Of a DNA stretch of 64,000 nt, positions 3,840 through 61,599 are shown one piece after another. Positions within the stretch are counted from its first letter, which is position 1. Every line of letters begins with the position of its first letter. The position numbers and the translations under genes were made by a program. The notes beneath the pieces were generated by a model, which saw only the letters and a list, made by a program, of their open reading frames with translations, had not been told where the DNA came from and did not search any database. The stretch lies in contig OX393553.1 in NCBI GenBank assembly GCA_947650365.1, positions 39,975,949 to 40,039,948 of the forward strand, given 5' to 3'. The stretch is from Chamaelirium japonicum. Its lineage: Eukaryota; Streptophyta; Magnoliopsida; Liliales; Melanthiaceae.

Positions 3840-4386
3840 CTCTCTCTTCCTCCTTCTTCTTCTTCTTCTTCTTTTCTTTTTCTTTTCTTTTCCTTTTTTT
3901 TTTTTTTTTTTTTTTTCTTTTTCTTTTCTTTTTCTTCCTTCTTCTTCTTCGGTTCGGTTCCGGGCTGCATGGGCAGCAGCGGCAGCGGCGGCGCGCGGGG
4001 CTGCAGCATGCGGGGCGGCGCGCGAGGCGGCGCGCGGGGCGGCGCGCGGGGCGGCGTGCGGGGCTGCAGCACGCGGGGCGGCGCGCGGGACTGCAGCACG
4101 CGGGGCCGGCCGTGTCGGGTTCAGGGCCGAGAAGGGCGGCGGCCGGGCCGGCGTGGGGGCCGGCCGTGTCGGGTTCGGGGCCGAGAAGGGCGGCGGCCGG
4201 GCCGGGTTTGAGGCCGAGAAGGGCGGCGGCCGGGTCGCAGGCAAAGAAGAAGGAGGAGAAGGGGGGTGCGGGTCCCCCCCTCCCTCTTTGCTGTTGGCCC
4301 TCAATTGGAAGGGGGCGGTGGTCCCCCCTTCCCTCTTTGCTGTTGGCCTTCAATTGGAAGGGGGCGGTGGTCCCCCCCTTTCTTCC

Positions 4387-4423
<37 letters not shown>
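3840..4423 (+). repeat. Low-complexity leader: pyrimidine tract, GC-rich GGCGCGC block, T36 run
   Basis: A CTT/T-rich tract (about 3848-3950) is followed by a very GC-rich block built of GGCGCGCGGGGC and GGGCGGCGGCCGGGCCGG units (3966-4250). Then come two copies of a 60-bp GGGGGCGGTGGTCCCCCC unit and a run of 36 T (4388-4423). Long open frames pass through this region, but their composition (runs of F, A, G, R) argues against coding. Confidence 0.8.
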
Positions 4424-4425
<2 letters not shown>

Positions 4426-4657
4426 GCTTGTCTTGACTTGCCTCCTTTCATGGTCCTCCAGGGCCCGCGTCTTCGAGAGTTTGACTTCCTTGGGCTGGAT
4501 AGACGAGGATTTCTTCGACGGGAGGAGATGCCTTTGCTTTCCTTTCACTCGTGTGCGCCGTCACCGCAGCTCAAGGCGGGAAGACCTTCTGTCGTTGCTC
4601 CGTGTCTTTGTGCACGAGCGCATCACGGAAGATGGAGTCGCGGATGCGACTTGCGGG

Positions 4658-6599
4658 ATGCTGAAATTAAGCGAGAAGATCCACACTGACGAAGGGATCT
4701 CCATGAAGCTTCTGCGGCCGAGTTTGAGTCTTCCGTTCCATCATTGCGGTGAAGAGTTCGTGCCTACGCCAGTTGTTGCCTCGAAGATATGTGCTAGGCT
4801 GACCCGATGGGGCCCCGATTCTTGGCCTCGGGGCGACGTCCAGTACCTTTGCGGCTTTCGCGAGTGGATGGACGAGCTCTACGAGGTCTTTGGCGCGGAA
4901 CCTGAGATGAACTTATTGGCCAAATTTCTAGCGCCGGCTCGTCGGGAGTACAGTCGTCCTGAGGGGATGTACCGTGCGCTTTGTGAGCTTTGGTGTCCGG
5001 AGACTAACACCTTCCTTACTGGGGCGGGGGAGATAGGCATCTCGCTTCGTGATGTCCATATCGTTTCGGGGTGCCCCGAGGTACGGAACTACTACCAAGA
5101 GGAGGTGCCTGCCTTGAAGGATCTGCTGGACAGCAGCTACGCTCCGAGTTCTTGCCTCCTTCTGTTCAAGGCATATGCTATCATTGCGGCGAGGGACCAA
5201 TCAGATCGAGTGCGTCCTTCTTCTTGGGTCGATTTTTGGTTCAGAGGCGAGTATAGAGCTCCAGCGCCCTCAGCTCACCCGATGTGGAAGATCGCTCAGA
5301 TGCAGAGACCTCCGCTTCGCTCCTTCGTGAGGCCTATCGATTCCTTGGCTCGAGAGAAGCACTCAATGGAGGGGAAGCAGTGCCCCTGGGAACTCCTTGG
5401 CCTGAAACGGGACAGCGAGGAGTGGCGATCGGTTTACCGAGCCGCCGGGCTGGTCATCTTTCTTTGCCGGTTCGTGCTTCCGTGTTCTGGGGAGGCCATT
5501 CGTCCGGGGACCTTCCTTGCTGCTTCCAGGATGGAGAGGGGCGAGCTCTTCAATCTAGCCCCAGCCATACTATGCGCCTTGTATCGGGCTCTCAGCGGGA
5601 CTTACTGGGACTTGTCTGGCTCAGATAAGGCCAAGGAGGAGCTCGGCCGGTCGGCTGCTTTCGGACCCTTGCATTATTTGTATGGTTGGATAGCTTTGCA
5701 TTTCCCGAAGGGGATCTTTGCCAGGCGCGGGCATCCAGCCGAGTTACCTTTCCTCCCAGGGGTAGGAGGGATTTTGAACGCCTTTATCAGTTGGGAGCGT
5801 CCGAAAGAGTGTGCTCGTACCCTTTTGAGGAGGATGGGGAGCGTCGATTTTGAATTTCTGTCGGAGCATTCGGTGCTGCCTTTGGAGAGGTCGACCGTGT
5901 ATGACAACGACGGGCTCCCGGACAGTCTTTACTGGAACATGGTCAGCTGCCGCCCTGGCTACTTAGTCTGGCGCAAAGGAGATGTGGTGGAGGTGGAGCA
6001 GTACTCCCCCCATCGCTTTGCCCGTCAGCAGGGTTTTCGACAGGAAGTCCCTGGCACGCCTCAGCAGCTGCAGGGGCGTTTCAGTCCGCAGGAGGGTTAC
6101 CGTCTGTGGGCTTCCCTCTACGCTCGCTTTACTGGTAGTAGTTTCTTCCCTGGGGCCAAATCCGGGCTTCGGGACGCCGCCACCCCGGAATACTGCCAGT
6201 GGGTTAAAGGGCGAGTTTCCCCTTTACTTGCGAGTTTTCCAGTCGACGTCTTGGTGAGTAGCGGGTTCAGGAATTTCTGCTTTGATCATTCTGCGGGAGT
6301 AGAGGACCGCCGCCTCCAACTGGGACTTCGGCGGGCGCAGAGGAGCGGTAGTCGTCTTTCCAGCGCTCGTTGTGTCCCCTCTTCCGTTCCGGTGCTGGAT
6401 GTCGAGCTTACTAGTGCCCCTGGGGTATTCTGTTTCCCGAAGGCCGAAGTTGAGGGTGCCCCTCCCAAGAGAAGAAAAATGTGCATTCCTCGCGGGATGG
6501 TCCCGAGAGTCCCTTGTCTGACGGAGGATGCCGAGGAGCCTGGACTTCTGAAAGATGAAGTGATTCCTCCGTCCCGGACCGCTTCGTCCGACCACACAG
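4658..6599 (+). CDS. Antisense gene of the inner Tat element, first part: plant mobile domain
   Basis: A plus-strand frame opposite to gag-pol. It carries a plant mobile domain (aminotransferase-like PMD, PF10536 type): around LCELWCPETNTF, then GEIGISLRDVHIVSG, a stretch of conserved W/F residues, LHFPKGIF and FISWERPKEC. The start is put at the ATG at 4658, the first one after the low-complexity leader, although an open frame extends upstream through a poly-T tract. The frame runs to a GTATGG splice-donor-like site at 6600; an 81-bp intron-like gap ending in TTTTGACCAG separates it from the second part. Antisense extra genes with this domain are known in Tat elements; their function is unknown. 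Expression cannot be judged from sequence. Confidence 0.75.
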
Positions 6600-6680
6600 G
6601 TATGGAGCTCTCTTCATTTATTTGCCCTCTACGTTCAGGAAGTTTTATCACGCTGAGCACCGTTTCTTTCTTTTGACCAG

Positions 6681-7966: not shown

Positions 7967-10900
7967 TTAGGCATAGTACCTTTTGAGGTACTTGCCGTTG
8001 ATAGGGCCGAGTGTCAGCCCTTCTGGCGTGGTGAGGAGATAAGCGCCGTTGGAGTAGACTTCCTTGACGGAATGCGGGCCATCCCATTTGGCATCAAATT
8101 TCTTCCCTCCTCGATGCGAGAGGATGATGGGGCGTTTGACCGCCAGCACCAGTTCCCCTATCTGGAATGATCGAGGACGAATCTTCTTGTTGAAGGTGCG
8201 AGAGAGCCTGGCCTGATAACACTCCAGACGCTGTTGAGCTTCGAGGCGTCTTTCATCCAGTGCTTCCAATTCTGCTAGGCGGAGCTGGGCGTTGTCATCG
8301 CTGGTGAGGCCTTCCTGGACTGCTATCCTGAGTGACGGGATCTGGAGTTCGAGCGGAAGAACGGCTTCCACGCCATAGACGAGGGAATACGGCGTTGCTT
8401 GTGTCGGCGTGCGGAAGGATGTTCGGTAAGCCCATAGTGCTTCGCCCATGCGTTCGTGCCAATCTTTCTTTGTCTTCGAGACGGTTTTTTCCAGCAGCTT
8501 GCACAGAGTCTTGTTGAAGGCTTCTGCTAGTCCGTTGGCCGGAGCGTTGTACATTGTCGAACAATTCTGCTTAATGTTGTACAATGCGCAGAACTGGCTG
8601 ACGGCAGCATTCTTGAACTGCTTCCCGTTATCTGTTACGATGTAGCGGGGGACTCCATAGCGGAAGATGATGTCGTTCTGGATAAAGCTGATGACGGAGT
8701 ACTTTGTAACTTCCCTCAACGGTATCGCTTCAGCCCACTTGGAGAAGTAGTCCGTTGCCGCCAAGATGTAGAGATGTTGCTTGGATGACTTGGGCAGAGG
8801 ACCGACGATGTCAAGACCCCATCCGTCGAAGGGCCAAGACGCGATTGTTGGGTGTAAAGGCTCCGGAGGTTGACGAATGTAGTCCCCGTGCATTTGGCAA
8901 GCTTGACATCTTCTCGCGTACTCCAAGCTGTCTTTGATCATGGTAGGCCAGTAGTACCCCATCCTTCTGATGCGGAAGTGAAGCTTCGGACCGGACTGGT
9001 GCGATCCACAGATTCCGGCGTGTACTTCTTCGAGCGCGGCTTCTGCTTCCTCTTTCGCGAGGCACCTCAGGAGTGTGCCGTCATAGCTCCGTCGGTACAG
9101 CTCGCCGTTGAAGTGATAGAACCTCAGAGATCTTCGACGGATGTCACTTTTGCGCTTCGGATCTTCGGGGAGTTTACCATGAACAAGGTACTCCACCAAC
9201 GGTTGCCTCCAGTCTTGTTCTTTAATCTCGAGGACATGCACCGCGTGGGTTTGAACTGGTACCTCGGGCGGACCCTCTTTTTCGATGACCACGAATCTCC
9301 TGCAGACGGGGACGACGAGTGAATGCTCATCTGGGAACGGGAGTGTAGCCGCCAGATTTGCGAGTGCGTCAGCCTGCTGGTTAAGGTTTCTGGAAACGTG
9401 TTGGATGGAAACAGCCTTGAGTTTTTCGAGGAGCTTCACAGCTCGCGCATGCAACGGTACCAGGTCTTCTTTATTGACTTCGTATGCCCCCAGGACTTGC
9501 TGGATCACGAGTTGAGAGTCGCCAAAGATCTCTAGTCCTTGAAGGTTCATTTCGTCGGCTAGTTCGAGACCAATGAGTAGGGCTTGATATTCTGCCACGT
9601 TGTTGGAACATGCTTCCGAGAGCAGGAATGAGAAGGGGAGTATTTCGTTGTCCGGAGTGACAAAGATGACTCCGGCTCCCGCTATGTCTTGCCTAGCTGC
9701 GCCGTCGAAGAACATTTTCCAGGATGGGGCGATGTCAACAGAGAATACTTCTTCATCTGGGAGATCTTCTGATAACTCCCATTCTGCCGGGAGAGGATAT
9801 TCTGCGAGGAAGTCCGCGAGGGCCTGTCCTTTAACCGCTTTCTGTGGCACGAAGGTGATGTCGAATTCAAGTAGCAGCAGGGCCCACTTGGCTAGACGTC
9901 CGGAAAGCACTGGTCTCGACATGATATATTTGAGTGGGTCAGCCTTCGAGACGAGTCTGATGGTGTGAGCAAGCATGTAGTGTCGCAGCTTTTTCGTGGC
10001 GAAGATGAGCGCTAAGCAGACCTTCTCGATTGGGGAGTAATTCAGCTCTGCGCCGACGAGAGTGCGACTTAAGTAGTAGCAAGCTGTCTCTACGCCAAGT
10101 TCATTGTTCTGGGCCAGGAGTGCCCCCAAGGATTGTTCCTGGGCGGCGATGTAGAGGATGAGCGGCCTCCCTTGAACTGGTGCTGATAGGACTGGCGGCT
10201 TCAGTAGATATGCTTTGATGTTTTGGAGTGCTTCTTGGCACGCTTCGTCCCATGTGAACGGCGCTCCTTTCTTCATGAGGCGACTAAAAGGGTGGCACTT
10301 TCCAGCCAGGTTGGCGATGAATCTCCGGATATACGCCAAGTGTCCCTGGAGGCCTCTGAGGTCTCGCACTGTCTTTGGTACGGGCATATTGACGATAGCA
10401 TCAATTTTGGATTGATCTATCTCAATGCCACGATGTCGGACGACGAAGCCGAGGAATTTGCCCGAGGAGACTCCGAACGCGCACTTGAGCGGATTCATGC
10501 GGAGTTGGTACCTTCGAAGTCGTTTGAAGATTAGCTCAAGATCTTGTAGATGTGCCGATTTCTTCTTGGATTTCACCACGAGGTCGTCGACATAACACTC
10601 CACGTTTTGATGAAGAATGTCGTCAAAGATTTTCTGCATAGCTCGCTGGTAGGTGGCTCCCGCGTTCTTCAAGCCGAACGGCATTACCTTGTAGCAGTAG
10701 ATTCCTTTCGGTGTGCGGAACGCCGTGAGCTCCTCGTCCTTGGGTGCCATCCGAATCTGGTTGTAGCCCGATGATCCATCCATGAAAGTGAGCACCTCGT
10801 GACCAGTCGTCGCATCAACCATTAGCTCCGTGATTGGCAAGGGGAAGTCGTCCTTTGGACATGCGTTATTCAAGTCTCTGAAGTCCACGCACACTCGGAT

Positions 10901-13900
10901 TTGGCCGTTCTTCTTTTTGACGGGGACGATGCTAGAGATCCATGTCGGGTACTTGACCTCTCGAATGAAGCCGGCTTCGATCAATTTGTTGACTTCGCCT
11001 TCTATTTGGGGTACCAGTTCTGGCCGGTAGCGTCTTTGTCCTTGCTTGATAGCGCTGGCTCCGTGTTTGACGCTGAGCTGGTGCACTGCGATTTTTGGAT
11101 CGAGGCCCGGCATCTCCTTGTAGGACCATGCGAAGACGTCTCTGTACTCTCTAAGCAGTTTGGTGTATGCTGCTTCCTCCTCAGGGGTCAAGAGTGTGCT
11201 GACGAATGTAGGCCGAGGCTCCGTCTCCGTGCCCAAGTTGATTTCCTTCAAGTCATCAACGGTGGACTGCCCCCCTTCTTCGAGGACTGGCGGGGCGTCG
11301 GGCAACTCGTCGTCCGAAGTAGAAGTGTCACCGTTGCCGGGATCCGTAATGGAGATATGATGGACGGCAGCCATGGGTGGGTGGGTGGGTGTTGAGACGA
11401 AGTCCTCGATAGGCATTTCCAGGCGATCGAACACTGACTTCTTCTTTGAATGTTTGACTGGCCCGAGCCTCTCGAACACGGATGTGCGTTTTTGATTCGA
11501 CCAGTCTTTACCGCCTCTGGTTTGCTTCCGGAACAAGGCTTGGCATCGAGCCCGTCGTCGTCTTCTCCTGCTGTCTGGATGGCTGAGGTAGGTAGAGAGT
11601 GCATCGGAGATTGTCGATCCTTCAGCTGCTTCATCTACTATCCTCGCCTCGATGTAGTTCGAGGTGAAGGTCTTCTTTGCTGCTGTTCTGATGACCAACG
11701 GAGCTTGACTGGAGCCGATGCCTCGACGGTTCGGGGGAATTTGCTCTCCGTTTTGAAATAGCCGAGCTTGAGTTCTTGTCATCCCATGCGGAGTTGCTGC
11801 TGGTGGGAGTGTGCCCATGGCGCTTTCCTCGTTATAGCCAGCTCTAAACAGCAATTTGGCAGCATTTTGCCCCCAACTCCCTTCCGGTTTGAATCCGAGT
11901 GGCTCGAGGTCTGCCGATTCGACGGGTCTGCTTGGGTTCGGAGCTTCTGCCAGACTAGGTAGTGGCACCGTCATTTCTTGCAGAGTGATGACATTGGCCT
12001 GAGATAACGTTGGGGCCAGCTTCCTTGTCGGAGTAGAAGGCGATCGCTCGGATTTGCGGAGCCACTGAGGCGCGAGACGCAAGACAGGCGCCGTTTGGAT
12101 TGGCAACGGGGTATGTTGCATTGCTCTTGGCTCGAAGCTGATGCGCATCCTTTGCCCAGGTTTCGGCGTTCCTTGGACCTTGAGTCTTGCTTCGTCAGAA
12201 GGTGGCACTGGATTCCCGGGAAGAGGAGTCTTTTCCTTATTTACTTCTTCAATCTTTTGAGCTCGAGGGGTTTTAGCTGGCAGAACTTCCGCGACCAGGC
12301 CCTTTGCTTGGTAGAATTTAGCGTCGGCCAGGTGTGCCTCGGCCTCGTTGAATGGCTTGTCGTCCGCAACTATGCACCTCTCCACGCCTTCTTCGTAGTA
12401 CTTGAGGCATTGATGCCAGGTGGATACTATGATGCCGTTCTCGTGCAGCCATGGTCTTCCTAGCAGGAGACGATATGATGTCCGGCAGTCGATGATGTGG
12501 AAGAGGACCGTCGTATCTAGCGGGCCGATGGAAAGCTTCAGACGAATGATTCCAACGGTGGACTGTCCGCCTTGGTTGAAGCCTTGAATGACCAACTGAC
12601 TTGGTGAGAGCTGGTCGTTGGTAATGCCGAGTTGACGCATTGTCTGGATGGGCATGATATTGACGGCGGAGCCACAGTCCAATAAGATTCGGTTCACTGG
12701 CTTCTCCTTGATGTATCCCGAAACGTAAAGAGGCCGGTTGTGCAATCGCGTCCCGAGTTGCAGGTCCTCGTCTGAAAAGGTTATCGTTGCATCACACGAG
12801 GCTATAGCTCTGCCCTTCTGGTCATCCTTCCTTTTTCTCTTGTAGCTATCTGGATCGGCCAAGGCCGCCGCCATTGCCAGGCGAGCCTTCTTCGGAAGAT
12901 GCAAAGCCTCTACGAGCGGCATGTGCAAGATTGCTTCGTCGTGAGCGGCGGTGCCCCCATCGTTGGAGTCGTCCCCCTCATCGGTGGAGTCGCCTTCTTC
13001 GGAAGTTTCGCCTTCGTTCTTTCTTTCCGACACTTCATGGACTTCGATCATGCAACAAGACACCTTGACGTGTTGGTCCACCGGGAGGAAGTGATCCGGG
13101 AAGAACTCTTGCAAAGTTGTCGGCTCTGGAAGACTCTGCTGAAGGATATCGTCTCGGCTCGCTGACGGTACTTTGAACGCCTTCCTTCCTGGAGTCTTGC
13201 TTTTCTTCTTGTAGGTCTTCCGCTTGGTGAATCCCCTCATCACACGGTCTTGCTTGAGCTTCTTTTCTTGCCAAGGCTTTCGCCGCCGCGGTAGCATGAC
13301 CCATGCTTCTTCGTCGGTGGATTCCCCTTCGCTAGGATGATGGTCGTCAGCAGCAACTAGCTTCTTTGATGACACTTGTTCTTCCGGAGGCTCTACTTGC
13401 TCATCTTCCGATCCCCAGCCGGTGGGCTTGATTTCTTCGATTGGAACGGATGGAGGCCTTGAGTAGAGGACGTAATAGTCAAACTTCCCTGATGGCTGGC
13501 CTAGCAGACCGACTTCTGGGTCTCCCTGCTCGTATCTTTCTCTAAGAGTGCGTTGGGACATAGCTTGACTGGAAGGGACTTGCTCTTCTCGAGGTTCCAC
13601 TGGCTCCTCTCCCGATCCCCAGCCGGTGGGCTTGATTTCGTCGATTGGAACGGACGGAGGCCTTGAGTAGAGGACGTAATAGTCGAACTTCCCCGAAGGC
13701 TGGCCCAGCAGACCGACTTCTGGATCTCCTTGCTCATATCTCCTTTGGAGCGCCCGTTGGGATGCAGCATTGCTTGGAAGAGGTGCTGGCGTGAGCGATG
13801 ATTGCCCCCAGGGCAGCGGTGTTCCCTCCTCGGTGAGCGCAGGAGTATGTTGACGTCGCTTCGAGACTTTCGGCCGGGAAGTTGACTTAGCGATTGACGC

Positions 13901-15790
13901 TTGACGATTGAGGCGCAATTTGGGCATGCTTCGTCGAGCGGCAACGAGTACCGGCGAGAAGGAGCCGAAGGTGATGGACGTCATGTTGGCCGTAGCAACC
14001 TCCCCGGAGTCGATCTCTATCTTCCCTTGTTTAGCGAGCGCCATGATTCTTTCCTTGAAGACGAAGCACCTTTCGATGGGATGACTCACCACCCGGTGGT
14101 ATTTGCAGAAGAGAGGGTCGTCGACACGATGCATCTGCTCGGGCCTCTTTGAAGGAGGTAATTCTATCATCTTCTCTTGCAGCAGTTGGTCGAACATGGA
14201 GGAGACTTCCGAGTCTGGGAAAGGGTACTCCTTGGCTTCGAGCTCCTCGAGAGTCATCCTTTGTCTTAGCGGCGGAGGCGGTGGTATGGCGACTCCCTTC
14301 TTCTGATCTGGCTTGCCACCGATCTTGAGCGGCTTGGAGGTCGAAGCGACGTCAGCAACATTGACTTGTTTCAGTTTCGTTGCCGGTGGCTTGTCCTTCT
14401 TCTCTATCTTCAAGAAGTCCTTGTTCTTCAAGTCCCCGCGGTTTGCTAGGCTGAGTTCCATGTCATGAGCCCGAGTTGCGAGTTCTTCGAAAGACCGAGG
14501 CTTGATACCTTTGAGGATATAGAGCAGACCCCAGTGCATGCCTTGGGTGCACATCTCGATGGCCGAGTCTTCAGACAAGCGGTCTCGTGAATTCAGCGCG
14601 AGGTTCCTCCACCTGTCGATGTAGTCGATCACTGGCTCGTCTTTCCTTTGCTTGACGGCGGTGAGTTCGATCATGCTGACGGTTCGTCTGGTGCTGTAGA
14701 AGCGATTGAGGAACTCCCTCTCCATCTGATCCCAGCTGTCAATGGTTCCTGCAGGAAGATCAACGTACCAGTCGAACGCGTTGCCTTTGAGGGTGCGGAC
14801 GAATTGCTTCACCATCTCGTCGCCATATGTGCCGGCATTATTGCAGGTCTCGATGAAGTGGGCAACGTGCTGTCTCGGATTTCCCTTTCCGTCGAAGTGC
14901 TGAAACTTTGGCGGCTGGAATCCGACTGGGAAGCGTAGCTGCTGGATCCTCGTAGTGTAGGGCTTCGAGTATGCCGCCGTGATCGGAGGAAGGCCACTGC
15001 CGTGAGAGCGCATCATGTCGGCTATCAACGCTTGGACTTGCTGAGCGTTCATCGTTGCCGTTGCTGGAGGTTGAGTGGCCGCCGAGGCTGGCGCTGGGTA
15101 GACGACTTCCAATGGGACGGGAGCCGAGGAGAGCGCTGGAGTAACTGCTTGAATCGTCGGAGCAACCTCTGCAGGAGCGGGAGTTGAAGACGGAACTGGA
15201 GCGGCTACTGGAGAAGCGACGGGTTGGCCGACTGCTGCAGCGTCCTTTGCGCTTAGCTTTTGGAGCAGAGTGTTGATGTGACGATCCTTCTCCTCCATCA
15301 GCCGAGTAATTTGCGCCATATGCTCGCTCATCTGCATGACTTGGAGCTGAAGAGCGGACGGAGGGTGGTGACGGAGAACGTCTCGGTGTTGCATGTTCGC
15401 ATCCTCGCCGTCATCATCGGAGACGTAGTTACGCCGACTTGCTTCTGGTTGATGATTGATGTTTGCCCCCTGCAGAGGAGGTGTAGCGTCTGCTGGAGAA
15501 CCCGAACGGGTTCGGGGTTGGGGCTGGTCCTCCCCAAACTTCTGGACATGGGCTCCAGGATCGAGGCTCGTTTCTTCATGCACCAGGGCCTCGTCGGCGC
15601 TTTGGCGAGCATCTTCGATAGTAGCTTCTGGCACGAAGATGTCCGCAAGAGTCCGTGTACGCCGAGTGTAGACGCGCACCATTGGAGGAGCATCACCCTC
15701 CGGATTTACTGGATCACCGTGGCGGAGTAGAGGAGACTCGGCGATTGGTGAGAGGCTTGGAGCAAACGCATCGTTGTTTGTTCCGGCCAT
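7967..15790 (-). CDS. Gag-pol polyprotein, inner Tat element (2607 aa, looks whole)
   Basis: One frame holds all retrotransposon parts. Gag lies at about residues 280-455, with a CKYHRVVSHPIERC zinc-knuckle-like motif near 560. An aspartic protease (LLDCGSAVNIM) lies near 1035 and a reverse transcriptase with YVDD near 1735. A gypsy-type RNase H is followed by a second, archaeal-type RNase H (MFFDGAA, NNVAEYQALLIGLELA, GDSQLV). The integrase has an HHCC finger (HAGICGSH, CQAC) and a DDE core (GLDIVGP, TDNGKQF, NGLAEAF), then a C-terminal WDGPH segment. The double RNase H marks the Tat lineage. An internal duplication repeats LGQPSGKFDYYVLYSRPPS. The start is the ATG at 15790 (MAGTNNDAF), shared with the outer copy and with the right element; a TTG slightly upstream is not used. 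Confidence 0.97.
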   Translation of the reverse strand: MAGTNNDAFAPSLSPIAESPLLRHGDPVNPEGDAPPMVRVYTRRTRTLADIFVPEATIEDARQSADEALVHEETSLDPGAHVQKFGEDQPQPRTRSGSPADATPPLQGANINHQPEASRRNYVSDDDGEDANMQHRDVLRHHPPSALQLQVMQMSEHMAQITRLMEEKDRHINTLLQKLSAKDAAAVGQPVASPVAAPVPSSTPAPAEVAPTIQAVTPALSSAPVPLEVVYPAPASAATQPPATATMNAQQVQALIADMMRSHGSGLPPITAAYSKPYTTRIQQLRFPVGFQPPKFQHFDGKGNPRQHVAHFIETCNNAGTYGDEMVKQFVRTLKGNAFDWYVDLPAGTIDSWDQMEREFLNRFYSTRRTVSMIELTAVKQRKDEPVIDYIDRWRNLALNSRDRLSEDSAIEMCTQGMHWGLLYILKGIKPRSFEELATRAHDMELSLANRGDLKNKDFLKIEKKDKPPATKLKQVNVADVASTSKPLKIGGKPDQKKGVAIPPPPPLRQRMTLEELEAKEYPFPDSEVSSMFDQLLQEKMIELPPSKRPEQMHRVDDPLFCKYHRVVSHPIERCFVFKERIMALAKQGKIEIDSGEVATANMTSITFGSFSPVLVAARRSMPKLRLNRQASIAKSTSRPKVSKRRQHTPALTEEGTPLPWGQSSLTPAPLPSNAASQRALQRRYEQGDPEVGLLGQPSGKFDYYVLYSRPPSVPIDEIKPTGWGSGEEPVEPREEQVPSSQAMSQRTLRERYEQGDPEVGLLGQPSGKFDYYVLYSRPPSVPIEEIKPTGWGSEDEQVEPPEEQVSSKKLVAADDHHPSEGESTDEEAWVMLPRRRKPWQEKKLKQDRVMRGFTKRKTYKKKSKTPGRKAFKVPSASRDDILQQSLPEPTTLQEFFPDHFLPVDQHVKVSCCMIEVHEVSERKNEGETSEEGDSTDEGDDSNDGGTAAHDEAILHMPLVEALHLPKKARLAMAAALADPDSYKRKRKDDQKGRAIASCDATITFSDEDLQLGTRLHNRPLYVSGYIKEKPVNRILLDCGSAVNIMPIQTMRQLGITNDQLSPSQLVIQGFNQGGQSTVGIIRLKLSIGPLDTTVLFHIIDCRTSYRLLLGRPWLHENGIIVSTWHQCLKYYEEGVERCIVADDKPFNEAEAHLADAKFYQAKGLVAEVLPAKTPRAQKIEEVNKEKTPLPGNPVPPSDEARLKVQGTPKPGQRMRISFEPRAMQHTPLPIQTAPVLRLAPQWLRKSERSPSTPTRKLAPTLSQANVITLQEMTVPLPSLAEAPNPSRPVESADLEPLGFKPEGSWGQNAAKLLFRAGYNEESAMGTLPPAATPHGMTRTQARLFQNGEQIPPNRRGIGSSQAPLVIRTAAKKTFTSNYIEARIVDEAAEGSTISDALSTYLSHPDSRRRRRRARCQALFRKQTRGGKDWSNQKRTSVFERLGPVKHSKKKSVFDRLEMPIEDFVSTPTHPPMAAVHHISITDPGNGDTSTSDDELPDAPPVLEEGGQSTVDDLKEINLGTETEPRPTFVSTLLTPEEEAAYTKLLREYRDVFAWSYKEMPGLDPKIAVHQLSVKHGASAIKQGQRRYRPELVPQIEGEVNKLIEAGFIREVKYPTWISSIVPVKKKNGQIRVCVDFRDLNNACPKDDFPLPITELMVDATTGHEVLTFMDGSSGYNQIRMAPKDEELTAFRTPKGIYCYKVMPFGLKNAGATYQRAMQKIFDDILHQNVECYVDDLVVKSKKKSAHLQDLELIFKRLRRYQLRMNPLKCAFGVSSGKFLGFVVRHRGIEIDQSKIDAIVNMPVPKTVRDLRGLQGHLAYIRRFIANLAGKCHPFSRLMKKGAPFTWDEACQEALQNIKAYLLKPPVLSAPVQGRPLILYIAAQEQSLGALLAQNNELGVETACYYLSRTLVGAELNYSPIEKVCLALIFATKKLRHYMLAHTIRLVSKADPLKYIMSRPVLSGRLAKWALLLLEFDITFVPQKAVKGQALADFLAEYPLPAEWELSEDLPDEEVFSVDIAPSWKMFFDGAARQDIAGAGVIFVTPDNEILPFSFLLSEACSNNVAEYQALLIGLELADEMNLQGLEIFGDSQLVIQQVLGAYEVNKEDLVPLHARAVKLLEKLKAVSIQHVSRNLNQQADALANLAATLPFPDEHSLVVPVCRRFVVIEKEGPPEVPVQTHAVHVLEIKEQDWRQPLVEYLVHGKLPEDPKRKSDIRRRSLRFYHFNGELYRRSYDGTLLRCLAKEEAEAALEEVHAGICGSHQSGPKLHFRIRRMGYYWPTMIKDSLEYARRCQACQMHGDYIRQPPEPLHPTIASWPFDGWGLDIVGPLPKSSKQHLYILAATDYFSKWAEAIPLREVTKYSVISFIQNDIIFRYGVPRYIVTDNGKQFKNAAVSQFCALYNIKQNCSTMYNAPANGLAEAFNKTLCKLLEKTVSKTKKDWHERMGEALWAYRTSFRTPTQATPYSLVYGVEAVLPLELQIPSLRIAVQEGLTSDDNAQLRLAELEALDERRLEAQQRLECYQARLSRTFNKKIRPRSFQIGELVLAVKRPIILSHRGGKKFDAKWDGPHSVKEVYSNGAYLLTTPEGLTLGPINGKYLKRYYA

Positions 15791-15838
15791 CGCGAACTTC
15801 AAGCAGCTTCTTCAACCGTACGGGTGAAAGGAGAAGAG

Positions 15839-44365: not shown

Positions 44366-47300
44366 ATGGCCGGAACGAATGATGATACGTTTGCTCCAAC
44401 AAGCCTCTCACCTATCGCCGAGTCTCCACTACTCCAACACGGTGATCCAGAAAACCCGGAGGATGTCATTCCCCCGGTAGTACGCGTCTACACTCGGCGT
44501 ACTCAAACTCTTGCGGACTTCTTCACGCCAGAAACTGCTGCCGAAGATGCCCGCCAAGGCGCCAATGAGGCCTTGGTGCATGAAGAAACAAGCCTCAATC
44601 CTGGAACATCTGTCCAGAAATTTGGGGAGGACCAGCCCCAACCCCGAACCCGTTCGGGTTCTCCAGCGGACTTTGCACCTCCCTTGCCGGGGGCAAACAT
44701 CCGTCATCAAGCAGAAGCAAGTCAGCGTAACTACGTCTCCGACGACGATGGCGAGGGTGCGGGCGTGCAACATCGAGACGTCCTGCGACATCATCCTCCG
44801 TCCGCTCTCCAGCTCCAAGTCATGCAAATGGGTGAACACATGGCTCAACTCACCCGACTAATGGATGAGAAAGATCATCACATCAACACCTTGCTTCAGA
44901 GACTGAGTGCCAGGGATGTCGCAACATTCGGTCAACCTCCTGCTTCTCCAGTAGCTGCTCCAGCCCCGTCTCCAACTCCTGCTCTTGCAGAAGTCGGCCC
45001 GGCAACACTAGCAACTACTCCTGCACTTTCCTCGGCTCCCGTGCCGGTCTCGGTGGCCGCGCAACCTTCAGTGGCAGCAACGATGAATGCCCAGCAAATA
45101 CAAGCACTAGTGGCTGACATGATGCGTTCCCACGGCGGCAGCCTACCTCCGATTACGACGGCATATTCAAAGCCTTACACCATAAGGATCCAACAGCTGC
45201 GCTTCCCTACCGGGTTCCAGCCACCAAAGTTCCAACACTTCGACGGAAAGGGGAACCCAAGGCAACACATTGCTCACTTCATCGAAACTTGCAACAACGC
45301 CGGCACATACGGCGACGAGATGGTGAAGCAGTTCGTTCGCACCCTCAAAGGTAATGCTTTTGACTGGTATGTTGATCTTCCTCCAGGATCCCTTGACAGC
45401 TGGGATCAAATAGAGAGGGAGTTCCTCAACCGCTTCTACAGCACTCGGCGCATCGTCAGCATGACCGAGCTTACAGCCACCAAGCAAAGGAAGGATGAGC
45501 CGGTGATCGACTACATCGATCGCTGGAGAAACCTTGCGTTAAACTCGCGAGATCGCTTGTCTGAAGACTCGGCTATCGAGTTGTGCACCCAAGGCATGCA
45601 CTGGGGCTTGCTCTACATCCTCAAAGGGATCAAGCCTCGGTCTTTCGAAGAACTGGCGACTCGGGCTCATGACATGGAGCTCAGCTTAGCAAATCACGGG
45701 GACTCAAAGGCCATAGCCTTCTAGAAGGTGGAAGAGGAGGACGAACCGGCGGCATCAAAGCAAGTCAATGTCACCGACCTCGCTTCGACTTCCAAACCAC
45801 TCAAGATCGGTGGCAAGCTGGACAAAGGCAAAGGAGCCGCCATACCACCTCCTCAGCCTCAACGGCCACCAAGGATGACTCTCGAGGAGCTTGAAGCTAA
45901 GGAGTATCCCTTCCCAGACTCGGAAGTTTCCTCCATGTTTGATCAGTTAATGCAAGAAAAGATGATCGAACTTCCGCCACCAAAAAGGCCAGAACAAGCA
46001 CATCGAGTCAACGATCCGCTCTTCTGCAAGTACCACCGGATGGTCAGCCATCCCATCGAGAAGTGCTTTGTCTTCAAAGATAAGATCATCGCACTCGCCA
46101 AGCAAGGGATGATCGAGATCGACTCTGGTGATATCGTCGAGTCAAATATGACGTCAATCACCTTCGATTCATTTCCACCAGCACTGACTGCTCCACAACG
46201 CACTTCAGCAAGGCTGCGCATCGTCTGTCAAAGATCGATGGCGAAACCAGCTCCAAGAAGACGACGACGGTATGTTCCTGCAGTGCCCAGGGCCAAATCC
46301 TCACTGCCTTGGGGGCAACCGCCTCTCGCGCAAACACTCCCTCTTCCAAACAAAGCTACATCCCAGCATGTGCTCAAAGCAAGAGACAAGCAAAGAGACC
46401 CTGAAATCAGCCTGCTAGGCCAGCCTTCAGGTAAATTCGACTACTACATCCTCTATTCCAGACCTTCGCCTGTCTCAATAGAAGAAATCAAGCCCACCGG
46501 CTGGGAGTCAGAAGGCGAACCGCCAAGGTCCCCAGAGGAGCAAGGCTCCCTGACTCATGGAGAACCCACAAATCTCCAGACAAGGTACGAGCAAGGAGAC
46601 CCGGAGGTCGGTCTGTTAGGCCAGCCTTCAGGTAAATTCGACTACTACGTCCTCTATTCCAAACCTTCGCCTGTCTCAATAGAAGAAATCAAGCCCACCG
46701 GCTGGGAGTCAGAAGGCGAACCACCAAGGTCCCCAGAGGAGCAGGTCTCCCCGACCTATGAAGGACCTACCGCTCCCACTCCAGAGCTTCACCTTGGTAA
46801 CGAAGAATCCACTGATGAAGATGCATGGGTCATGATTCCTCGCAGACGAAGGCCATGGATGCCAAGAAGTCGCAAGATCGATCGGGTAACAAGAAAGCTT
46901 CCGGAACGAAGAACTTACAAAAAGAAAAACAAAGCTCCAGGAAGAAAAGCATTCAAAGTACCGCCAGCAGATCCTGATGATCTCCTCTTGCAAAACCCTC
47001 CAGAACCGACAACGTTGCAAGAGTTCTTCCCCGATTACTTCCTCCCAGCTAATCAGCAGCACGAAGCCTCCTGCTGCATGGTTGAGATTCACGTAGCGCC
47101 GGAAGAAGAAGATAGGATCAAGCCTTCCAAAGAAAGCAACACCGACAACGAGGAGGATAATTCCGACAAAGACAGTACTGCTGCTTACGATGAGGCAATC
47201 CTGCACTTGCCACTCATAGAAGCACTACACCTCCCAGAGAAAGCTCGCGTAGCAATGGCCGAGGCTTTGACAGACCCAGACAGCTACAAAAGAAAGAAGA

Positions 47301-50300
47301 AAAACGCCGAGAAGGACAAAACTATTGTCTCATGTAACGCAGCAATAACTTTCTCGGACGAAGATCTGCAACTCGGAGCACGACTGCACAATCGACCTGT
47401 CTACGTCTCGGGATACATCAACGAGAAGCCGGTAAATCGAATCCTGTTGGACTGTGGCTCCGCTGTCAACATCATGCCTATCCAGACAATGCGCCAGCTC
47501 GGCATCACCACCGACCAGCTCTCACAAAGCCAGCTGGTCATTCAAGGGTTCAACCAAGGAGGACAGTCCACCATAGGGATCATTCGTCTAAAACTCTCCA
47601 TCAGTCAACTTGACACGACGGTTCTTTTCCACGTCATTGACTGTCAAACATCATATCACCTCTTGCTGGGAAGACCGTGGCTGCACGAAAACGATGTCGT
47701 AGTGTCTACCTGGCACCAATGCCTCAAGTACTACGAGGAAGGTCTGGAGAAGTGCATTGTTGCAGACGACAAACCATTCAATGAGGCTGAAGCGCACCTC
47801 GCCGATGCCAAGTTTTACCAAGCAAAGGACCTTGTCGCAGAAGTCCTTCCAGCTAAAGCTCCTCGAACTCATAAAGCTAAAAGGATGGAGCAGGAAGAAG
47901 CTCTGCCAACTCCAGATCCAGTACCACTATCTAAGGCGATACGCGAAGTCAAAGAAGTGCTAGCGCCGAGACAAAGAATGCGCATCAGCTCCAAGCCAAG
48001 ATCCATAAAGCACACTCCATTACCTGCCCAAGCTACGACAATCTTACGCCTCACGCCTCAGTGGCTTCGCAAAGATGAACCACCACCTTTTGCCTCGCCA
48101 AAAGGGATGGTCCAGCCGCTATCAGAAGCTAATGTCATCACTCTGCAAGAGATGACACTGCCACTACCCAGCTTGGGGCAAGCTTCAAGTTCGCCAAAAC
48201 CCATCAATCCCTTCGAATCCAGCCAACTCACAATCAAGCCAAAAGGAAGCTGGGGGCAAAATGCCACCAAGCTGCTGTTCAAAGCTGGCTACGACAAAGA
48301 CAGTGCTGCACATATGAGTACGCTCCTGCCAGCTCCAATACCACACGGGATGACTAAGACTCAAGCCCATTTACTCCAGGGTGGCGAGCAGATCCCACCA
48401 AATCGGCGAGGCATCGGCTCTCGTCAAACCCCGATGGTCATCAAAATAACAGGAGAAAAGACCTTCACCTCTAACTACATTGAGGTGAAGTTGGTAGATA
48501 AAGCGAAAGAAGGATCGTCAGCCTCCGATGCACGCTCCACCAATATCATTCATCCCGCTACAAAGGGCGCCAAAAGAAGGCGATATCAAGCTCGGCGTCG
48601 GACCATACCTCAAAAGCAAAGGAAGAGCGTCAAAAACCAGGCAAGTCAAAACCCAATATCAGTATTCAAAAGACTTGGGCCAATCGGGCAAGCAAAGCAA
48701 AGGTCAGTATTCGACCGTTTGGGAAAGCCACCCACTGAGGTGAGAAAAATCATTCCCACCCACCCACCCAAATTTTTTCAAACTGCCGATGTTCCCAATA
48801 TCATTCTGGTCTCTCTTAATCATATCACAATTGCCGACTCCTCGGTCGACGTCACTTCTACTTCGGACGACGAGTTGCCTGATGCACCGCCAGTCCTCGA
48901 AGAAGGGGGGCAATCTACCGTCGACGATCTGAAAGAAATCAACTTGGGGACACAGGAGGATCCTCGACCCACATTCGTAAGTGCACTCCTGACTCCCGAA
49001 GAGGAGGTCGCGTACATCAAGCTACTCCAAGAATATAGAGATATCTTCGCATGGTCCTATAAGGAAATGCCGAGACTTGACCCCAAGATTGCAGTACACC
49101 AGCTTGCTGTCAAACATGGAGCTAGCGTCATCAAGCAAGGACAAAGACGTTACCGGCCGGAACTGGTACCGCAAATAGAGGGCGAAGTCAACAAGCTCAT
49201 TGAAGCCGGCTTTATCCGAGAAGTTAAGTATCCAGCGTGGATCTCCAGCGTGGTCCCAGTCAAGAAGAAGAACGGCCAGATCAGAGTATGCGTGGACTTC
49301 AGGGACTTAAACAATGCATGCCCCAAAGATGACTTCCCACTGCCAATCACAGAACTAATGGTGGATGCGACAACAGGCCATGAAGCACTAACCTTCATGG
49401 ATGGGTCCTCGGGCTACAACCAGATCCGGATGGCGCCCAAAGACGAAGAGCTTACGGCATTCCGCACGCCAAAAGGGATCTACTGCTACAAAGTCATGCC
49501 TTTCGGCCTGAAAAATGCAGGAGCCACTTACCAACGAGCCATGCAAAAAATTTTCGACGATATCCTTCATCAGAATGTAGAATGCTACGTCGACGACCTC
49601 GTGGTAAAATCAAGACAAAAGTCAACACATCTTCAAGACCTCGAGCTAATCTTCAAGCGACTTCGAAGGTACCAGCTTTGCATGAACCCGCTTAAATGCG
49701 CATTTGGGGTCTCCTCGGGAAAGTTTCTCGGCTTTGTCGTACGCCATCGAGGCATCGAGATAGATCAATCCAAAATAGATGCTATCCTCAATATGCCAAT
49801 CCCGAAAACCGTGCAAGACCTCCGAGGTCTCCAGGGCCATCTAGCATATATCAGAAGGTTCATCGCCAACTTAGCTGGAAAATGCAGGCCCTTCAGTCGC
49901 CTCATGAAGAAAGGAGCAGCATTCAAGTGGGATGAAGCTTGTCAGGAAGCCCTCCAAAACATCAGGGATTACTTACTCAAGCCCCCGGTTCTGACAGCAC
50001 CAGTTCAAGGAAAGCCATTGGTCCTTTACATCAGCGCCCAGGAGCAGTCCTTGGGGGCACTCCTGGCTCAAGACAACGAGCTAGGCAAGGAAACAACATG
50101 CTACTATTTGAGCCGCACTCTCATCGGCGCGGAGCTAAACTACTCCCCGATTGAGAAGGTCTGTCTGGCGCTTATCTTCGCTACAAAAAAGCTGCGACAC
50201 TATATATTAGCTCACACCATCAGGCTCATCTCAAAAGCCGATCCGCTCAAATACATCATGTCGAGACCAGTGCTCTCCGGACGTCTGGCCAAGTGGGCTT

Positions 50301-52213
50301 TGCTCCTCCTTGAGTTTGACATCACCTTTGTCCCTTGTAAAGCGGTCAAAGGTCAAGCTCTCGCAGACTTCTTAGCAGAATATCCCCTTCCAGCAGAATG
50401 GGAACTATCGGAAGATCTCCCAGACGAAGAAGTATTCTGCATCGACATCGCCCCTTCTTGGAAAATGTTCTTCGACGGTGCGGCCAGGCAAGATGTAGCA
50501 GGAGCAGGAGTTATCTTCGTCACACCAAACGACGAAGTACTTCCCTTCTCATTTCTACTATCAGAGCCATGCTCCAACAACAGGGCGGAATATCAAGCTC
50601 TGATCATTGGCCTCGAACTCGCCAATGATATGAAACTTCAAGGGCTCACAATTTTCGGCGACTCTCAACTCGTCATTCAGCAAATATTGGGGGCATACGA
50701 GGTCAACAAAGAAGATCTAGTGCCATTGCACCTACGAGCCCTGAAACTCCTTGGTACACTCAAAGATGCTTCAATCCAGCATGTTCCCAGAAACCTCAAT
50801 CAGCAGGCTGATGCGCTTGCAAATTTGGCGGCTACACTTCCGTTCCCAGAAAAAAGCCAACTCGTCATCCCTATCTGTAAGAGAATGGTGATCACCGAGG
50901 AGGACCTCCCTATGGGAATCCCGGACCAAGTCAATACAGTACACATTTTCGTGACCGACGAGCTAGACTGGAGACAACCATTCATAGACTTTCTTGTCCA
51001 CAGGAAGCTCCCTGAAGATCCGAAGCGTAAGGTCGACATTCGCCGACGGTCTCTGAAATTCTTCCACTTCAACAACGAGTTGTACCGTCGAAGCTACGAT
51101 GGTGCGCTCCTGAGGTGTCTTGCAAAAGAAGAAGCGGAAACAGCACTAGAAGAAGTCCATGCCGGGATCTGTGGCTCACATCAGTCCGGTCCAAAGCTGC
51201 ACTTCCGCATCAGGCGGATGGGGTACTACTGGCCCACTATGATCAAGGACTCCCTCGAGTTTGCAAAAAGATGCCACACTTGCCAGCTGCATGGCGACTA
51301 CATCCGTCAGCCTCCGGAACCTTTGCATCCAACCATCGCATCATGGCCCTTCGATGGATGGGGACTCGATAATGTCGGTCCGCTACCCAAGTCATCCAAG
51401 CAGCATCTTTATATCCTGGCGGCAACAGATTACTTCTCCAAGTGGGCTGAGGCAGTACCATTGCGAGAAGTTACCAGGCACTCTGTCATCAACTTCATCC
51501 AGAACGACATCATCTTCCGGTACGGCATCCCTCGCTATATCGTTACGGATAACGGGAAGCAATTCAAGAACGCCGCTGTCAGCCAATTTTGCGCTAAGTT
51601 CGATATCAAGCAAACGTGTTCAACCATGTACAACGCCTCTGCCAACGGCCTAGCTGAAGCTTTCAACAAAACACTCTGCAAACTTTTGGAGAAAGTCGTC
51701 TCAAAGTCGAAGAAAGACTGGCATGAACGCATGGGTGAAGCGCTATGGGCATATCGTACCTCTTTTCGCACGCCAACACAGGCAACTCCGTACTCGCTGG
51801 TATACGGAGTAGAAGCTGTCCTCCCACTTGAACTCCAGATCCCGTCACTCAGGATAGCCGTCCAGGAAGGCCTCGTCAATGGCGACAACGCTCAACTTCG
51901 CCTAGCAGAATTGGAAGCCCTGGATGAAAAGCGCCTCGAAGCCTAGCAACGCCTGGAATGCTACCAAGCCAGGCTGACCCGAGCCTTCAACAAAAGGATT
52001 CGCCCTCGATCCTTCCAAAAAGGAGAATTGGTGCTCGCAGTCAAACGCCCCATCATCCTTTCACATCGAGGAGGAAAAAAGTTCGACGCCAAGTGGGATG
52101 GACCTCACGTTGTCAAAGAAGTCTACTCCAACGGCGCATATCTTCTCACCACGCCAGAAGGGCTTACACTCGGCCCCATCAATGGCAAGTACCTCAAAAG
52201 GTACTATGTCTAA
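44366..52213 (+). pseudogene. Gag-pol polyprotein of the right Tat element (broken)
   Basis: It starts with MAGTNDDTFAPTSLSPIAES, homologous to the left elements. The same parts follow in order: gag (FQHFDGKGNPRQH), knuckle CKYHRMVSHPIEKC, protease LLDCGSAVNIM, reverse transcriptase YVDD, gypsy RNase H, archaeal-type RNase H (MFFDGAA, NNRAEYQALIIGLELA), and integrase with HHCC finger and DDE core, to the C-terminal WDGPH segment. The duplicated LGQPSGKFDYY segment is present here too. There are about two breaks in nearly 8 kb, so it died recently or after only slight decay. Confidence 0.93.
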
Positions 52214-58099: not shown

Positions 58100-58409
58100 G
58101 GCTCACAAATAATTCAAATAAATACCAAGCATGAAACCAGAGCAAACCAAGTGCCAAACAAACTTGTGCACCAACAGTACAGCAGCACACACACTCAACA
58201 TAGTTAGTTATACTCACACCGCACAACAAAGAGTTGCGAGACTGTCGGTGCTATTATCGACTCTTTCACCTTAACAAAACAATGATATATCGGCCGCAGA
58301 TCTTAGCACCAGTATCGGGGAGGAACACCCGGATCTTCTATGATTCATCATCAAACTCTTCCACCAATTGATCTCTCACCCCCAAACTGCTGGATTCTGT
58401 TCTGTGTTC
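58100..58409 (-). other. Probable second 3'UTR exon of eRF1
   Basis: On the minus strand an acceptor-like TTGAAATCAG precedes 58409. The sequence that follows is exon-like in composition, without long T runs, and reaches a TATTTATTTGAATTATTTGT stretch near 58105-58125 that could hold the polyadenylation signal. The end point is approximate. Confidence 0.5.
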
Positions 58410-58811
58410 CTGATTTCAAGGTTAAGCCCACAAGTTAGAAAACAGACAGCGCAGTTTCATCAAACTTGTTTGTAAATTATGCCACCAGATTTCATATTCG
58501 TCCCTCATTTTTTTTTTTTTGAATAATTTGACACCTGAACTATGATCCCGCTCAATTTTTATCCCAAAAATACCCTTATCGATTTCCAATAAGACCAACG
58601 CATTTTGAAATAATTAACTTATGCTTACTGGGACAAGGGTATTTTTGGAATAGAAGCTGACGGAGGGGGCTAAATGCAGGTGGAGCATAGTAGAGGATTC
58701 AGATTGTTCGAAAAAAGAGTTGAGAGGCTGATATGAAATGAGGTGTATAGTTCAAGGGAGGTTTTTGTAATCAGCCCTTAATTCTTATAGTATTAGAAAG
58801 AAACTACAGAC
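58410..58811 (-). other. Probable 3'UTR intron of eRF1 (402 bp)
   Basis: Minus strand: donor AAG/GTCTGT at 58812/58811, acceptor TTGAAATCAG/GAACAC at 58410/58409. The interior is T-rich on the minus strand near the acceptor side (CTGTTTTCTAAC) and holds an A/T run. The donor is about 112 nt downstream of the stop codon, beyond the 50-55 nt rule for NMD. Confidence 0.6.
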
Positions 58812-58812
58812 C

Positions 58813-58926
58813 TTAATATCTTTTGGACTCCTCGTGCGTCCCCCAAGGAGCATCTCCAGGGACAGCTGGCAAAGCAAGCGCTGGAGTCTCCTGGATCAAC
58901 TCCGGTAAATGGTTGGCTGATTGCTA
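58813..58926 (-). promoter_or_regulatory. Leaky stop context and read-through extension of eRF1
   Basis: On the minus strand the stop TAG is followed by CAATCA, which fits the CARYYA read-through consensus. Reading on in frame gives 36 sense codons (QSANHLPELIQ... ending ESKRY) and then TAA at 58815-58813. That TAA lies one base before the intron donor. A read-through ribosome would thus clear the exon junction complex region. Confidence 0.75.
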
Positions 58927-60237
58927 ATCGGAATCTTCGTAAGTATCTCCGTCATCCGACAGCTCATCGAACGACCTTATATCAAGCTGGTAGCGCAAGA
59001 TCCCGCCGATGCCGCCAAACCCTCGGCAGAACTGCGAGCCCTCCTGAGATTTGTTGGTAACGAACTCGAGGGTGCAGCCGAAACGCTTGTACTCGTTCGC
59101 AAACCACTCCAGCAGAGATGCCTTGTCTTGCACCTCCAACTCAGCATTCACAGCTGGATCACGGAAGTTGCTCTGGTCGGCTTCTTGGTCTTTGTTGAAG
59201 TGCTTCACAATAATTTCCCCGGTAACACCATGCTTCAGCACAAATCGGTTGATATCCAGATTCTCCCAGACGATCAGAGTCTCCACGGCACCCATTTCAA
59301 GGGCTTTCAGTGTGTCGTCCACACCAAATACATACTTTCCAGTGTCCTGGCTTATTTCCTCAAAATACTTCCCGATCAGTCGTTTCTCCTGGATGAACTT
59401 CACATTTGATAAAATCTCTGACGAAAGCTCGATTGCCTGATTGAAACCATTCTCTCCACCATAAGAAACATCAACGACGTTCAGAATTTTAGCCTGCAGA
59501 CGGGGATCGAACATGTCCGACTGGCTTAGTTCTGTTTTGAAATCAGCAGAACCAGCCAAAATTAGCCCAGCTACGTTCGGCTGACTTGTAGCAGGATTTA
59601 TGAAGAACTGGGTGGCAAGCTCAGCTGTTTTCCGCACATAGTTATGACGCTTTTCCATCCGAAGCCTAGCAAATCGCAACGCCGACTGCCCTCCTCTCCC
59701 GTGCTTCTTCGGGAGATCAACAGTGAACTTGTGGAGCACCTCCCGTGTATTACCACTTAACGTGCCAAAAAGGGTTCCATTTCCGTCCATAATTATGAAT
59801 CCGAACTTATCATCAGATTCCAAGAGTTCATTCAGCGCCTCGGTATGAAATTTGTTGTCACAAAGATAGAGCGATGCATTAATGGGCTTGAAAGGCTCGA
59901 AATCTATCGTGACCTTCTTCTCTTTTCCATCGTCGGTGACGATGGTTCCAGTGTACAAAACCAGCCCATTCGGCGGAACCTTGTTGTAAAGTTTCAGCCT
60001 CTGCTGAGCAGAGGTAATGGCACCCAACACGGACTGACGATTTACTCTGCTCTTGATATTCGAAGCAGTCCCATATTCATCACCCAACATCTTAGCGACT
60101 CGAGAGATTTGATCACGTGGCGGCATGATAAGAGAGATCATGCTTGTGCCGTTACCCCTTGCAGATTCCAGTGCCTTGATTAGTTTCTTAATCTTCCATA
60201 TCTCAATGTTCTTATCAGTTTCATGACCATCTGCCAT
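58924..60237 (-). CDS. eRF1: Eukaryotic peptide chain release factor subunit 1 (eRF1), 437 aa
   Basis: It recognises all three stop codons in the ribosomal A site and triggers peptide release together with eRF3. The frame is unbroken and intronless, as usual for plant eRF1 coding regions. Domain N has GTS (about 30-32), TASNIKS (57-63) and YLCDNKF (124-130, the YxCxxxF motif) for stop-codon reading. Domain M has [14 protein letters not shown], with GGQ at 182-184 for peptidyl-tRNA hydrolysis. Domain C (from about 275) binds eRF3 and ends in the acidic [11 protein letters not shown] tail. The start is the ATG at 60237 ([10 protein letters not shown]), the plant-conserved N-terminus; an in-frame TTG two codons upstream is not needed. 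All key residues are present, so the gene is judged functional. The UAG stop and its context suggest feedback control. Confidence 0.97.
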
Positions 60238-60282
60238 TTTCAAAAAGCCTCTAGCACACCCAAGAGGTAGATTGATCTACCT
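60238..60282 (-). other. 5'UTR piece of eRF1 with an acceptor-like site
   Basis: On the minus strand GTCTTGTGCAG ends at 60281, 44 bases before the ATG. This fits the 3' splice site of a 5'UTR intron. The upstream exon and promoter could not be placed. Confidence 0.45.
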
Positions 60283-61599
60283 GCACAAGACACTATTAAT
60301 CACAGATATAAATGCTAGTTGAGTGAAATTGGATTTTTTTTTAAGCGTTAACATAAACATAAATAGATGATAAGAGATCACTTTAATATTGCAAAATCGG
60401 TAAACATTAGATATCAAAAGGATAAAAGTATAAAAGAATCGAATGCTCCGCTTTCTACTTGTCATAAAAGCAGAGGTAGTTGGTGATGGCAATTTACCAA
60501 AAGTAAACCAACTATCAATATCAAGGGGGAAATCCAGAGATACAAAAACAAGATTGGCATCTATTTATTAGTAGCTATATAGTTGGAGGTGGAAAAGTAT
60601 GAAATCTCCTCTCGTTTGGAAACCCAGAGGCGCAAAACTGATGTTTATAACAGTGGACATGCATACCTTAGCAGCCTTACCAAGACAGTTGACTAACTTG
60701 TTACAGGCAATAAGAGAAGGCATATACGACTACCACTAGCTTCCTCAGATATAGTACAGGGAATTCATACCGCTGACTTGATAAAATAAGCCTACCACTG
60801 CCTACATCCTTTGCAATTCCTTATGGAGCAGTTTATGGTATACAAAGTTACAACCTATAGTATGTAGCTTCTTATGGAACTACTACTTTGGAACGAATAA
60901 CGATGTTAATGAGTTGGCCGACTTTCCAACTCATCAACAGTGACACAATTACTACTCAAAAGCATAGTTACCAAATTGGAAGTCGGGAAAAATGGCTAGG
61001 GGAGAAGACGGCAAAATCGGGAAAAAGTCAAGAAAGACTGAAAGAGTTGGGAAACAAATGAAAATTTTAAAAATATATTTATATATAGATGTTCCATTAG
61101 GTTTTTTGAGCAGTAATGACAGGGTTATATGCAATTAATCGGGATTAAAACATGTAAATCGGGATTAAAACATATAAATCGTTATTTTATTTTATAAAAT
61201 CAAGACTTTTAAAAAAAAATCGGAAAAGAGTCGTGTCGTAAGCGTTGAATGAACAAGTCATATTTGAATCACGACTTAGTAAAAAATTAGAGTTTTCGGT
61301 AACATAACTCAAAAGCACGATTCCATTGATGCCCACATACAAAGATGTAGATCTGTGGAAACTGGTACTAGTACTACAATATTTAAGGATAGGAAATAAT
61401 CGCCAAGACGGAGCGCATTTGTTGGATCCAAGGAATGGATTGGTCATGTTTAGTTTCGGGAAATAGGTAAAACACCAACTTTACAAGTCATGCAGTGGGA
61501 TTCCCAAATAGCATGATACATGTGAGATAAAATCTGATCATGATTCATTGCTACTGGGTATTAGAAGGTGAGAAGTTCCTAAAATGCAAATTTTAAATG
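60283..61599. other. AT-rich DNA upstream of the eRF1 start: likely 5'UTR intron and/or promoter
   Basis: No protein frame. GGGATTAAAACATGTAAATC and near copies recur at about 61140-61180. The first exon of eRF1 may lie here, but I see no decisive TATA box or donor. Confidence 0.4.

Follow-up and report, generated by a model that had tools for sequence, protein, structure and literature searches.

The closest described system is the feedback circuit of Arabidopsis eRF1-1 (Nyiko et al. 2017, 10.1093/nar/gkw1303). As described in PMC6755094, a CARYYA context lies next to the stop codon of this gene, an intron follows at a distance of more than 50 nt, and a second stop is located near the poly(A) signal. 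The same source reports that eRF1-1 mRNA was raised in upf1-1, that a UPF1-dependent fragment starts 22 nt after the first stop, and that the readthrough element rescued the mRNA from NMD only partially. A review of the circuit (PMC11062462) summarizes that much eRF1 leads to NMD, and little eRF1 to readthrough and escape. In the Arabidopsis ribosome profiling described in PMC9293766 no footprints were found in the eRF1-1 extension, and in the same paper eRF1-1 readthrough is called demonstrated, citing Nyiko 2017.

The distance dependence of intron-based NMD is described for N. benthamiana reporters carrying one potato intron (PMC3711448): no NMD was found with the intron 30 or 40 nt after the stop, NMD was found at 50 nt or more, and the effect grew up to a stop–intron distance of 80–95 nt. 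In Aethionema the eRF1 intron is given as 124 bp after the stop (PMC8641386). UAG-CARYYA is known as the type I readthrough context (PMC5382211). The same stop and six-base consensus are used by tobamoviruses and other viruses, but by that account they stand in replicase genes and do not serve for sensing release factor. In the fungus Neurospora crassa, autoregulation of eRF1 by readthrough and 3'UTR-intron NMD is named in the title of Kurilla et al. (2020, FEBS Lett), so a spread of the circuit beyond plants is not new. The output of the class-I release factor of Mimivirus and Megavirus also depends on recoding at a stop, but there readthrough is combined with a frameshift within the coding region, and the description in PMC3521657 includes no NMD or splice junction.

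The window analysed here is a stretch of 64,000 nt of Chamaelirium japonicum contig OX393553.1, and all window coordinates are relative to this stretch (Table 1). It was found that a 437-aa minus-strand ORF matched all of the Pfam domains eRF1_1, eRF1_2 and eRF1_3. Its top PDB match was 8ip8, 'eukaryotic release factor 1', with 437 of 437 residues covered, and the NIKS, GGQ and YxCxxxF motifs were all present. The domains, the PDB match, the key motifs and a Ka/Ks of 0.022 against a paralogue (see below) all indicate that the gene encodes an intact, functional eRF1. Elsewhere in the window, a long frame at 3677-6676 on the plus strand matched Plant mobile domain (PMD); stretches of low complexity occur in the first part of this frame.

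When the host genome (∼1.52 Gb) was searched for the eRF1 protein, four matches were obtained: the copy in the window, two further full-length copies (C156 and C3) and a fragment (C12). The C156 copy differed from the window copy at 1 position of the CDS, at 1 position between UAG and the junction, and, over 6.1 kb, by 24 mismatches and 5 gap openings. It probably represents an allele or else an alternative contig. The C3 protein was 97% identical to the window eRF1. Because Ks between the two genes was ∼0.83 and Ka/Ks 0.022 (Nei-Gojobori, Jukes-Cantor), they must have diverged long ago, with the protein under strong constraint. The C12 match (38661557-38661790) was a degenerate eRF1-like fragment with 49% identity to residues 333-415 and two internal stops, perhaps a relic or a further family member. 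Upstream of the ATG, TTGTGCAG/GTAGA was observed at a distance of 43 nt in the window (span 60238-60290, minus strand) and 49 nt in C3, and it resembles the acceptor of a 5'UTR intron common to both genes. An eRF1 of another plant species was not found in the genome-contig, viral-contig and plasmid collections. The genome-contig collection held one related locus, which was archaeal; no related locus was confirmed in the viral contigs; and every one of the 13 plasmid records came from haloarchaea, with a release-factor annotation on 11 and none on the other 2.

Table 1. Features of the window and the basis of their assignment
Feature	Position	Strand	Basis or remark
Retrotransposon, one 2611-aa frame: gag, reverse transcriptase, RNase H, integrase	7967-15802	-	
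Second retrotransposon coding region, gag 44366-45724 then pol 45728-51946, adjacent frames	44366-51946	+	
Last 3'UTR exon	58100-58409	-	C3 similarity; the 3' end at 58100 is a guess
Predicted 3'UTR intron, 402 nt, AAG/GTCTGT ... AATCAG/GAA	58410-58811	-	Splice scoring and C3 alignment
Fold-back repeat (MITE-like), most of the intron	58448-58778	.	Self-complementary alignment
Second stop UAA (TC2), ending 1 nt before the junction	58813-58815	-	
36-codon extension, QSANHLPELIQETPALALPAVPGDAPWGTHEESKRY	58816-58923	-	Open frame; codon score unlike that of the eRF1 CDS
CAATCA, type I readthrough context (CARYYA)	58918-58923	-	Exact match; identical in C156 and C3
First stop UAG (TC1)	58924-58926	-	Identical in the window, C156 and C3 copies
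eRF1 CDS, 437 codons and UAG	58924-60237	-	Pfam, PDB, genome paralogues, Ka/Ks

An earlier note on this DNA had proposed that the eRF1 stop is a UAG followed by CAATCA in the leaky CARYYA context, about 112 nt from a splice junction, and that 36 open codons lead from it to a UAA one nucleotide before a likely donor. The context was confirmed without a mismatch (UAG at 58926-58924, CAATCA at 58923-58918), the open frame and the UAA were located exactly to the base, and the distance was counted as 112 nt, with 113 nt in C3. When the 112-nt segment between UAG and junction was shuffled 5000 times with dinucleotides preserved, CARYYA appeared at the segment start in only 43 shuffles. Of the 1266 TAGs counted over the two strands of the window, 6 were followed by CARYYA; a local scan expected 2.12 such sites, and at least 6 were reached in 2 of 100 shuffles. 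The motif alone is thus not unique in the window, and it is informative because of its location at the eRF1 stop. The remaining five sites were preceded by open frames of 1–27 codons, compared with 450 at the eRF1 site, and the eRF1 TAG was the only one among the 1266 with both CARYYA and at least 36 open codons after it. A readthrough-stimulating RNA fold 3' of the UAG was also considered and rejected, as no unusual fold was detected there against shuffles (z of –0.69).

Downstream of the extension, the UAA (58815-58813) was followed by a single G (58812) and the donor GT (58811-58810). The length of the open frame carries no significance of its own: at least 36 open codons occurred in 1161 of 5000 shuffles and after 324 of the 1266 window TAGs, so that chance gives as much in about a quarter of cases. 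The tight spacing of UAA and donor needs no special cause either, because stops ending 0–2 nt before AG/GT were common (114 of 1134 site-by-frame cases); TAAGGT made up 19 of 378 AGGT sites. The earlier note had ascribed the arrangement to the published loop of plant eRF1 and had seen fine tuning in the 1-nt spacing. The former is supported, in that the named circuit is described in the sources above and those of its cis parts that can be read from sequence are present both here and in the paralogue with Ks of ∼0.83. The fine tuning was not borne out: the C3 stop lies 11 nt before the junction, such coincidences are common, and by the reporter data described in PMC3711448 any stop within less than ∼50 nt of the junction on its upstream side should be sufficient.

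The predicted 3'UTR intron was examined by splice scoring with general plant weights. With these weights, donor 58811 ranked 2 of 148 GT and acceptor 58410 ranked 3 of 163 AG, and a branch-point-like CTAAC was found with its A 24 nt upstream of the acceptor. The intron cannot be fixed by such scores alone, because acceptor 58270 scored higher (4.0 compared with 3.47 for 58410) and acceptor 58728, within the repeat, nearly as high (2.73); for 58270, no branch-point match was found in the scanned range. The borders were set by comparison rather than by consensus alone, since the C3 junction and last exon could be aligned: the C3 donor reads AAG/GTCAGT, and its last exon aligned from window position 58409 onward. 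The exon alignment on both sides, with differing intron bodies between, supports splicing at 58811/58410. In both copies the predicted intron begins more than 50 nt past the first stop (112 nt in the window, 113 nt in C3). The self-complementary alignment of the fold-back repeat scored 130, whereas the highest score among 200 shuffles was 58. A genome search with it gave 2549 candidates, 40 of which were scored, with at least 79 matches listed; given these many matches, it belongs to a common, high-copy repeat family. The C3 intron, of 109 nt, is too short to hold this repeat, which could change splicing efficiency and hence NMD strength in the window copy.

Similarity to C3 continued into the last exon. 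For its first 300 nt, none of 300 shuffles aligned with C3 as well, and the same held for the 120 nt directly past the junction and for the 120–300 nt region taken as a whole (0 of 300 shuffles each). In 100-nt slices, no similarity to C3 was detected from 200 nt on (slices 200–300, 300–400, 400–500 and 500–600 were equalled by 166, 115, 96 and 279 of 300 shuffles), in a test of equal offsets that is weakened by indels. Because the last exons are similar to ∼200 nt, the mRNA probably reaches at least ∼200 nt beyond the second stop, which is therefore unlikely to lie close to the mRNA 3' end.

The strongest support for the observation is the C3 paralogue, in which motif and intron position are kept. 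TAGCAATCA was kept in all three copies. Between UAG and the junction, the window and C3 were identical at 80 of 110 ungapped positions (0.727), a value inflated by gapped alignment (shuffle mean of 0.615, maximum of 0.788, above the observed one); the alignment score of the same segment was reached by 0 of 300 shuffles. At the 4-fold sites of the CDS, 97 of 174 were identical. The C3 extension consisted of 33 codons and was closed by a UGA 11 nt before the junction, so that in both genes an in-frame second stop would bring a readthrough ribosome up to the junction. In C3 a further in-frame stop was observed three codons on, starting 9 nt after the start of the UGA and ending 2 nt before the junction, whereas the window has the single UAA. 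The frame of the extension was the same at only 28 of 110 aligned positions and shifted at 82, counts that depend on the gap placement of the aligner. A 17-nt block in the extension, GTCCCTGGAGATGCTCC, was identical in both copies and stood at frame position 0 in the window and 1 in C3, which hints that it is the RNA or DNA that is constrained, more than the peptide. With 82 of 110 extension positions frame-shifted, context and geometry are better kept than the peptide, and from the alignments it can fairly be said that stop context, intron position and near-junction stop have been retained, but the peptide to a much smaller degree. A shared reading phase of the Aethionema distance (124) and that of the window (112) had been considered and was dropped, as the 113 nt of the paralogue break the pattern.

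The locus thus shares with Arabidopsis eRF1-1, as that gene is described, an eRF1 gene with CARYYA after its stop, a 3'UTR intron more than 50 nt on and an in-frame second stop. The second stop differs: in Arabidopsis it is described near the poly(A) signal, whereas the window UAA lies 1 nt before the junction and the C3 stop likewise just before it. Judging from the sequence comparisons, we consider it highly likely that the readthrough/NMD autoregulatory circuit of plant eRF1 operates at this gene. The exon junction complex sits ∼20–24 nt upstream of a junction. By the 50-nt rule of the N. benthamiana reporters, as described, NMD is to be expected from termination at UAG (112 nt) but not at UAA (1 nt). 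With eRF1 in good supply, ribosomes would terminate at the UAG, which lies 112 nt ahead of the spliced junction; the junction complex would then stay on the mRNA after termination and lead to NMD. With eRF1 in short supply, a fraction of the ribosomes would read through UAG-CAAUCA and translate the 36 extra codons, and such a ribosome would sweep off the complex and stop at the UAA adjoining the junction, by which the mRNA would be spared. Splicing, readthrough, complex removal, NMD and the resulting feedback are what we infer for this gene.

Part of these data could also be accommodated without readthrough. The 3'UTR intron would then make eRF1 an NMD target in which readthrough plays no real part, CAATCA would be an ancestral remnant, and it would be accidental that the second stop lies near the junction. 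Such an account gains from the open frame and the near-junction stop, both of which are common by chance, and from the Arabidopsis extension described without footprints (PMC9293766). Nevertheless, CAATCA was unchanged in a paralogue whose 4-fold sites match at only 97 of 174, and the source that describes the missing footprints also calls eRF1-1 readthrough demonstrated, citing Nyiko 2017; we therefore regard a circuit devoid of readthrough as quite unlikely. A narrower version of the favoured circuit would have it work in this lineage only through the exon junction complex. Each of the two genes would hold its second stop directly ahead of the junction, although the triplets differ and stand in shifted frames (UAA in the window; UGA and a close in-frame stop in C3). 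This is a tentative and rather doubtful proposal. The near-junction stops could each be chance, because 518 of 1266 TAGs were open for at least 21 codons, the length needed for such a stop. If the proposal were true, the target of selection would be the halting position of the ribosome with respect to the junction, not the peptide, and the sweep would be self-limited, one junction complex being cleared and the rest of the 3'UTR left untranslated.

It might also be supposed that readthrough exists to make an eRF1 isoform with a functional C-terminal extension, for which a frame of 36 codons is open. The codon score of the extension was –0.18, compared with 0.42 ± 0.13 (SD) for eRF1 stretches of the same length, and was reached by 1092 of 5000 shuffles. 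A coding-like extension was rejected on this score, which lies within the shuffles, and on the 82 of 110 positions frame-shifted in C3. The two extension peptides scored above all but 3 of 1000 shuffles, so calling them unrelated is disfavoured, though they are encoded by homologous DNA and share a leading QS. With only 28 of 110 positions in the same frame in the paralogue, and 33 codons against 36, a functional isoform appears extremely improbable. The remaining alternative concerns the intron itself, which may be unspliced or only sometimes used, with the fold-back repeat of ∼330 nt hindering splicing or offering another acceptor, so that intron-based NMD would be lost or weakened in this copy. 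The position of the repeat within the intron fits this idea, as do the scores of acceptors 58728 (2.73) and 58270 (4.0) against 3.47. Yet donor and acceptor match positions in the repeat-free paralogue, and acceptor 58270 was without a branch-point match in the scanned range, which makes lost or weakened splicing very unlikely.

Under the favoured reading, in which readthrough of the UAG protects the mRNA from intron-based NMD, the gene can probably sense its own eRF1 supply, and the same probably holds for both eRF1 genes of the genome. The published feedback circuit would thereby be extended to another plant genome, one with two old eRF1 copies. Comparison of these copies sets the retained features, namely the leaky stop, the intron position and the near-junction stop, apart from those not retained, namely the frame of the extension and the body of the intron, which opens the model to tests by reporter swaps. 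The two genes would also form a pair provided by nature, in which only one of the regulating introns carries a repeat.
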